64,000 nucleotides of DNA from Comamonadaceae bacterium (GTDB lineage Bacteria > Pseudomonadota > Gammaproteobacteria > Burkholderiales > Burkholderiaceae_C), in contig CANBRM010000003.1 of the NCBI GenBank assembly GCA_947371915.1, forward strand, positions 1-64,000. Reading direction: 5' to 3'. Below are positions 21,681-23,864 of this stretch, piece by piece (the first letter of the stretch is position 1; each line of letters opens with the position of its first letter). Below the pieces are notes generated by a model, which was given only the letters and a program-made list of their open reading frames with translations, was not told the origin of the DNA and did not search any database. The translations under genes were made by a program, and so were the position numbers.

Positions 21681-23864
21681 ATGGAGACCTCGGTAAAAAT
21701 CATGAAAATTGCTAAAAAATCTCTAAATCCTGAAGCCCGTCATGCACTCAAACTGGTCGCAAGCTTGTGCCTTGGGGTTTTCCCCAGCGCCGCTTTGCAT
21801 GCCCAAAGCGCAACCACTGCGCTAGCCGATGTGATGGTGCAAAGCGGACGTTTGGAACAAAAGCAATTTGATGCGCCAGCGTCGGTGTTTGCCATCGATG
21901 AGGACACGATTCGCAGCTCGGGGCCGCAAGTCAACATCTCGGATGTGCTGAACCGTGCACCCGGCGTGGTCGCGCTGAACCGCAACAATTACGCGCAAGA
22001 CGTGCAAATTTCGATTCGTGGTTTTGGCTCACGTGCCGCCTTTGGCTTGCGTGGTATTCGCCTGATCACCGATGGCATTCCGGCCTCCATGCCAGACGGG
22101 CAAGGCCAAGCATCCACCGTCAGCATGACCTCCACAGATCGCGTTGAAGTTCTTACCGGACCTTTGGCACAGCTCTACGGCAATGCCTCCGGCGGCGTGA
22201 TTCAAACGTTCACCCGCGAAGCAGGTGCCACACCTGAAGCTCAAGTCAGCTTGTACGCAGGCTCTTTCGGCATGACCCGCACGGACTGGCAGATCAGCCA
22301 ACGCTCGGGCAATGTGGGTTTGGTCGCGGACTACAGCACCTTTGGGATTGAAGGCTATCGCCAGAACAGCGATGCACGTCGACAACAACTCAACAGCGTC
22401 CTCACCGTCGACGCACAACCTGACACGCGCATCAAACTGATCGTGAACGTGTTTGACATGCCCTATGCCAAAGACGCATTGGGTTTGACATCAGCCCAAC
22501 TGGCTAGCAATCCAGCACAAGCGGGTACCAATGCCATCGCCACGGGCACACGCAAAACCGTGAAGCAAGAACAAGTGGGTGCCGTGCTGGAGCACACCAT
22601 CAACAGCGACTTGCGCTTGCAAGCGCGTGTTTACGGCGGCACACGCAGCAACTTGCAATACCAAGCAACCAATGTTTGGACCGGTCTGGAGCGACGATTT
22701 GAAGGCTTAGGCCTGCAAGCCAACGGCAAAGCGCAGGTATTTGACGGACAACGCATGACGTGGGTGGTCGGCTTTGACCAAGACCACGCCCAAGAGCAAC
22801 GCCAAGCCGGCGCAACGGCATCTGGTGAAAAAACCGCCACACCCGTCACACGCAACGAGTTGAACGAAGCCAGTAACCGAGACTTCTTTGCACAAGCCAA
22901 TTGGTCTTTAGGCGAACGCTGGACGCTCACCACAGGCGCACGCCAAAGCTCCGTCACACTCAAGAGTAGTGACAGCATGCCCGTCACATTGACCGACCCC
23001 GATGGCTCAGGCAGCGTGACCTACAAAGCCACCAGCCCCGTCTTAGGCCTCACATGGCATGCCAACGACAACTTGAACATCTACTTGAACCAAGGCAAGG
23101 GCTTCGAAACCCCCACCTTGGCTGAGGCCGCTTACACGCTGACCGCGCCCACCGTCATCAAAGGTCAATTCAATCCTAATTTATTGGCCTCGCGCAGCAA
23201 GCATTTGGAGTTAGGTACCAAATGGCAACCTACATCAGCCACGCGAATTGATGCCGCGTGGTTCCAAATCAAAACCGCCGATGAGATCGTCACTGCGCGC
23301 TCATCAAACGGACAAACCGCGTTCACAAATGCCTCGAAAACCGTGCGGGATGGTTTTGAGCTGTCCCTGCGCAACCAACACAGCAGCCATTGGCGCAGCC
23401 AGATTTCTGGCACCGTCATGAACGCCACCTACGACCAAGCATTCAGCAGTGTGATTAGCGGCACCCCCGTGACCGTGGCAGCGGGCAATAGCCTGCCCGC
23501 GATCCCCAAGCAACAGCTCTTCGCCTCCCTGCAATGGTCTGAAAAAGGGTTCAGCGCAGCAGGTCAAAAACCCGCGCTCGGCACTGAATTTGGCATCGAC
23601 TGGATCAACCGCTCTAGCATGTGGGCCAGCGACACCAACTCAGCTGTAGATGGCTTGGCTCCTGGCTATAGCGTCTTCAATGCGCGTGCGCGTCAACGTT
23701 ACCAAGTGGGCGCGGCACGGGTCGAAGCCTTTGTGGGCATCGACAACTTGACCAACCAATCCACCGTGAGTTCGGTGATCGTCAACCAAGCCTCCAAGCA
23801 ATACTTCGAGCCTGGCCTGCCCCGCAACTGGGTGGTGGGTTTGACCAGCCAAATACCACTTTAA
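21681..23864 (+). CDS. pqqU: TonB-dependent receptor, PqqU/YncD-like (candidate PQQ importer)
   Basis: [61 protein letters not shown]...[19 protein letters not shown] and terminal [26 protein letters not shown] closely resemble recalled E. coli YncD. Start reassigned. Confidence 0.75.
   Translation: [727 protein letters not shown]

Follow-up and report, generated by a model that had tools for sequence, protein, structure and literature searches.

A PqqU-like TonB-dependent receptor encoded beside a PQQ alcohol dehydrogenase module in Limnohabitans

A predicted PQQ importer in a quinoprotein gene cluster

The window (the whole stretch of DNA analysed, 64,000 nucleotides), from a Limnohabitans genome (Comamonadaceae) that is 83.5% complete, carries a gene whose product is very probably an orthologue of PqqU, an outer-membrane, TonB-driven importer of PQQ that would supply periplasmic quinoproteins. 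This reading, built on sequence comparison, agrees with the PqqU/YncD assignment made in the initial annotation and draws on a map of the PQQ-binding residues, a phylogenetic tree, the best matches among solved structures, and co-occurrence and adjacency with quinoprotein genes in genomes without PQQ synthesis. The PqqU family is already known, and the predicted Limnohabitans PqqU is an added member with strong comparative support. We infer PQQ as the substrate, coupling to TonB and a regulatory role for the neighbouring two-component system. The receptor would bind PQQ in an extracellular pocket and deliver it, driven by TonB, to the periplasm, where it may be used by the adjacent PedH-like alcohol dehydrogenase and by a putative sorbosone/sugar dehydrogenase encoded elsewhere in the genome. 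A protein with a TonB C-terminal domain (TonB_C) is present in the same genome. The receptor gene and its neighbours are as follows:

16005..16343, minus strand: small c-type cytochrome, probable electron acceptor (family matches)
16425..18143, minus strand: PQQ-dependent alcohol dehydrogenase, PedH-like (TIGR03075, 756.6 bits against a cut-off of 480; 6zcw, E 2e-236)
18418..19398, minus strand: ApbE FAD:protein FMN transferase (family matches)
19395..21536, minus strand: NosR-like polyferredoxin membrane protein (NF046105, 583 bits, below the cut-off of 1000; Fer4_5)
21702..23864, plus strand: PqqU-like TonB-dependent PQQ transporter, predicted (Pfam plug and barrel, best matches 6v81 and 9c4o, binding-residue signature, tree, conserved ATG)
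23872..24819, plus strand: YVTN beta-propeller, seven-bladed, PedA2/TIGR03866-like, putatively periplasmic (TIGR03866, 224.8 bits; co-occurrence with the dehydrogenase)
24850..25455, plus strand: cytochrome b561-family membrane protein (PF01292, 112 bits, above cut-off; distribution follows the dehydrogenase)
25465..26412, plus strand: histidine kinase, HisKA_3, UhpB/MctS-like (family matches)
26409..27050, plus strand: LuxR-type response regulator (family matches)
27066..29645, minus strand: second TonB-dependent receptor, not PqqU-like (residue alignment and tree; module member in L007, L008 and L061, 34%)

The receptor carries the PQQ-binding signature and groups with E. coli PqqU

The receptor lies in an uninterrupted ORF at 21630-23864 on the plus strand, with 744 codons counted from the first of three in-frame ATGs. 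The start had initially been placed at 21681, which is one of these ATGs; the ATG shared with the related loci L007, L008 and L013 is instead that at 21702, the best start, and it yields a protein of 720 aa with a signal-peptide-like N-terminus. Plug and barrel domains (PF07715, 63.8 bits; PF00593, 157.6 bits; both above cut-off) identify a TonB-dependent transporter. Against solved structures, phmmer returned the two entries for E. coli PqqU/YncD (6v81, E 3e-94; 9c4o, E 9e-94), a similarity beyond chance, with the next-best transporter at 1e-9. A full-length alignment with E. coli PqqU shows 35% identity, and in it the C-terminal segment GSVIVNESNGRYYEPSPGRNYGVGM and the plug segment both find their counterparts; with this overall identity, the earlier wording for these segments, very close to YncD, holds for the plug only. 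The NCBIfam equivalog model NF041535 scored the ORF at 436.8 bits, short of its cut-off of 1200, and E. coli PqqU at 1311.7 bits. This cut-off appears to be set for E. coli-like proteins, since other Limnohabitans PqqU score the same (~444-445 bits). A structure predicted from 13 relatives was of low confidence (pLDDT 56, plug unresolved), so its top Foldseek matches (9c4o, E 4e-36; 6v81, E 2e-33; next 2e-22) play a supporting role only.

The PQQ-contacting residues of PqqU were identified by Munder et al. 2025, who defined the signature Y/F/W99, R304 and R365 (PMC12124388), in a numbering that agrees with 6v81. Mapping these contacts onto an alignment with PqqU, a check proposed in the initial annotation, recovered the complete signature as F at 99, R304 and R365 (F138, R339 and R391 of the 744-aa ORF). 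Aligned with relatives and controls, the ORF also retains Q84, Q121, K274, Q308, Q310 and Y481, and differs from E. coli PqqU by Y99F, N477A and R536Q. Eight of the 11 named contacts are identical, plus the Y99F exchange, against 35% identity overall (binomial p 0.012), and the conserved contact positions do not vary among 13 close relatives. The main flaw in the match is R536Q, at a position where most close relatives have Lys. In E. coli PqqU, R536 closes loop 8 over PQQ; together with K274 it is important there, and both were regarded as semi-conserved and left out of the authors' filter (PMC12124388).

In principle the receptor could be a siderophore (ferric-chelate) receptor or another TonB transporter merely resembling PqqU. 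The siderophore-receptor model TIGR01783 does match the ORF and two contacts, R536 and N477, are altered; however, the score of 134 bits falls below the model's cut-off of 223.5, and E. coli PqqU itself matches at 225 bits. The residue pattern was absent from the seven E. coli TonB transporters aligned (FepA, FhuA, BtuB, FecA, CirA, Fiu, FhuE) and from those other receptors of the same genome that were aligned. A maximum-likelihood tree of 51 proteins recovered one clade of 38 PqqU-like sequences containing both E. coli PqqU and the ORF (support 100/97), apart from those same E. coli transporters; grouping with siderophore receptors or loss of the PQQ-binding residues had been named at the outset as refuting the assignment, and neither is seen. 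The genes next door moreover encode quinoproteins and not iron transport. Together these observations leave the siderophore reading very improbable and favour PqqU.

PQQ sources coincide with quinoproteins in near-complete genomes of the genus

We scored a PQQ source (PqqU or PqqC) and a quinoprotein (PQQ alcohol dehydrogenase or the PF07995 sugar-dehydrogenase family, which also includes non-PQQ proteins) as present or absent from tabulated E-values, in co-occurrence tests that ignore shared ancestry. Among the 22 genus genomes that were at least 90% complete, source and quinoprotein coincided, with 15 genomes having both and 7 neither. Across all 49 genomes there were seven exceptions, every one a quinoprotein without a detected source in a genome less than 90% complete. 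PqqC was missing from 15 of 17 PqqU carriers (G003 and G013 have both), among them the near-complete genomes with the closest PqqU relatives (G011, G048, G033). The PF07995 proteins aligned here retain the conserved His and the Arg-Asn motif, and the copy in the window's genome weakly matches E. coli YliI (2g8s). No member of the membrane glucose dehydrogenase family scored above cut-off in the genus search.

In the window's own assembly, 83.5% complete and hence no proof of absence, PqqC had no match and the best hit for PqqE, of radical-SAM type, reached 44 bits against a cut-off of 381. With no PQQ-synthesis genes detected in its incomplete genome, the organism most probably takes up PQQ from outside instead of producing it. 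The freshwater genus Limnohabitans would accordingly join the likely PQQ scavengers. The genus itself appears divided into makers and importers of PQQ, a division coinciding with quinoprotein carriage, and PQQ cross-feeding becomes testable between named relatives. A literature search on PQQ use in Limnohabitans found nothing. The window's genome also carries a second, truncated PQQ alcohol dehydrogenase at a contig end (L084; G000 contig C27, 3-617).

PqqU adjoins the alcohol dehydrogenase in L007, L008, L061, L066 and other loci. Its neighbour is a gene of the PF07995 sugar-dehydrogenase family at L006, L011, L012, L014, L017, L018, L059, L062, L073 and L086. PqqU homologues are known in Burkholderiales, sometimes near pqq genes (PMC12124388), and the main text of that paper makes no mention of Limnohabitans. 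The present protein belongs to the same order, and proximity to pqq genes recurs in G064, where PqqU lies ~0.5 kb from pqqE; in the window, by contrast, PqqU adjoins a quinoprotein in a genome without detectable pqq synthesis genes.

The propeller and b561 follow the alcohol dehydrogenase rather than PqqU

PqqU is the first gene of a tight run, with gaps of 7 bp before the propeller, 30 bp before b561 and 9 bp before the kinase, and a 4-bp overlap between the kinase and response regulator ORFs. The coordinates bear out the earlier proposal of an operon-like run that opens with PqqU and continues into the propeller. The PQQ enzyme noted beside it is likewise there, as the alcohol dehydrogenase that lies with the NosR-like protein and ApbE among the divergent genes upstream. 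The same annotation had extended a cofactor-uptake role to the propeller and b561, and this is where it fails. Such a role, for instance as a periplasmic PQQ carrier, would suit the tight spacing immediately downstream of the receptor and the propeller gene, yncE, that adjoins pqqU in E. coli. Yet in the genus (n = 49, shared ancestry ignored) the propeller occurred in 20 of the 23 genomes that have the alcohol dehydrogenase and in none of the other 26, and in near-complete genomes in 9/9 versus 0/13; its association with PqqU in the latter set was not above chance (p 0.5). b561, scored in 30 genomes, tracks the alcohol dehydrogenase likewise. Six genomes have PqqU and the sugar dehydrogenase without the alcohol dehydrogenase, and the orthologous propeller is missing from all six. 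Conversely, five PQQ producers (G006, G015, G024, G036, G044) carry dehydrogenase, propeller and b561 in a region without PqqU.

An uptake role for the pair is therefore very unlikely, and the two are best assigned to the dehydrogenase module, because both follow the alcohol dehydrogenase and occur without PqqU in producers. This separates them from the uptake step, against an inference drawn from operon position alone. In G016, a receptor fragment lies at a contig end beside the propeller. An argument for such a partnership of propeller and PqqU from the yncE-pqqU adjacency of E. coli K-12 was rejected: YncE falls under another family model (NF052280, 561 bits, against 65 bits for TIGR03866).

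A putative alcohol-oxidation module with lanthanide-type features

We propose that the propeller, b561, the small cytochrome c and the NosR-like/ApbE pair make up a module for alcohol oxidation and electron transfer that accompanies the dehydrogenase, with the two-component system probably regulating this module. L007 and L008 share the full arrangement of the window: one side holds the genes for the sigma-54 regulator, cytochrome c, the alcohol dehydrogenase, ApbE and the NosR-like protein, and the other those for PqqU, the propeller, b561, the kinase, the response regulator and the second receptor. In L009, L010, L013 and L058, PqqU stands beside rpe and thiL without the module, and the rpe-thiL region is the site of the whole dehydrogenase module in the window, L007 and L008. 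This region is a hot spot of gain and loss.

The dehydrogenase carries the motif WDFDGVNE, with the lanthanide-type Asp, where ExaA (1flg) has WDFSGNNE. Its closest match among solved structures is 6zcw, the PedH-type quinoprotein ethanol dehydrogenase PedH. The window resembles the ped cluster of Pseudomonas putida (PedH, PedA1A2BC, PedS2/PedR2) in its PedH-like dehydrogenase, PedA2-like propeller and LuxR-type two-component system. P. putida PedA2, a TIGR03866 propeller with no known function, is encoded together with the lanthanide ABC transporter; the propeller here, scoring below that model's cut-off of 287.3, is PedA2-like. Unlike the ped cluster, the window lacks ABC transporter genes next to its propeller and has PqqU, b561, NosR-like and ApbE genes instead.

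With a lanthanide-type enzyme next door, PqqU might be thought to import a PQQ relative or metal-bound PQQ (Ca or lanthanide), and metal co-transport has been proposed for some PqqU proteins by Munder et al. (PMC12124388). Glu at 274 is, however, the residue proposed to mark metal co-binding, and the ORF has Lys there like E. coli; the same residues are kept in close PqqU relatives from genomes without any alcohol dehydrogenase. We consider this substrate highly unlikely and retain PQQ itself as the probable one.

More speculatively, and with only a small chance of being right, the operon could be a complete unit for lanthanide-type alcohol oxidation with scavenged cofactor in a PQQ non-producer. 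If so, it would couple PqqU and the PedH-like dehydrogenase with a two-component system of their own and a flavin electron path through the NosR-like protein and ApbE; the second TonB receptor would possibly serve a lanthanide carrier, and capture of cofactor and metal would be co-regulated with the enzyme. That second receptor, at the end of the module, could serve uptake of lanthanide or another metal; it weakly matches PhuR and an enantio-pyochelin receptor.

The NosR-like and ApbE genes (18418-21536, minus strand) adjoin the PQQ dehydrogenase, an association conserved in L007 and L008. The pair suggests a flavin-based electron path, and our literature search found no description of a NosR/ApbE/PQQ-dehydrogenase association. 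Scanning for promoters gave no sigma-70-like site above the chance level. Within the divergent promoter region, a short non-coding stretch (approximately AAGCACGAAAAATGCCATC, 21594-21616) is conserved with L007 and L008. The sequence CATAAGATG (21534-21542) spans the NosR-like start codon and recurs upstream of PqqU in L013, a locus with no NosR-like hit, where it may be left over from a lost module.
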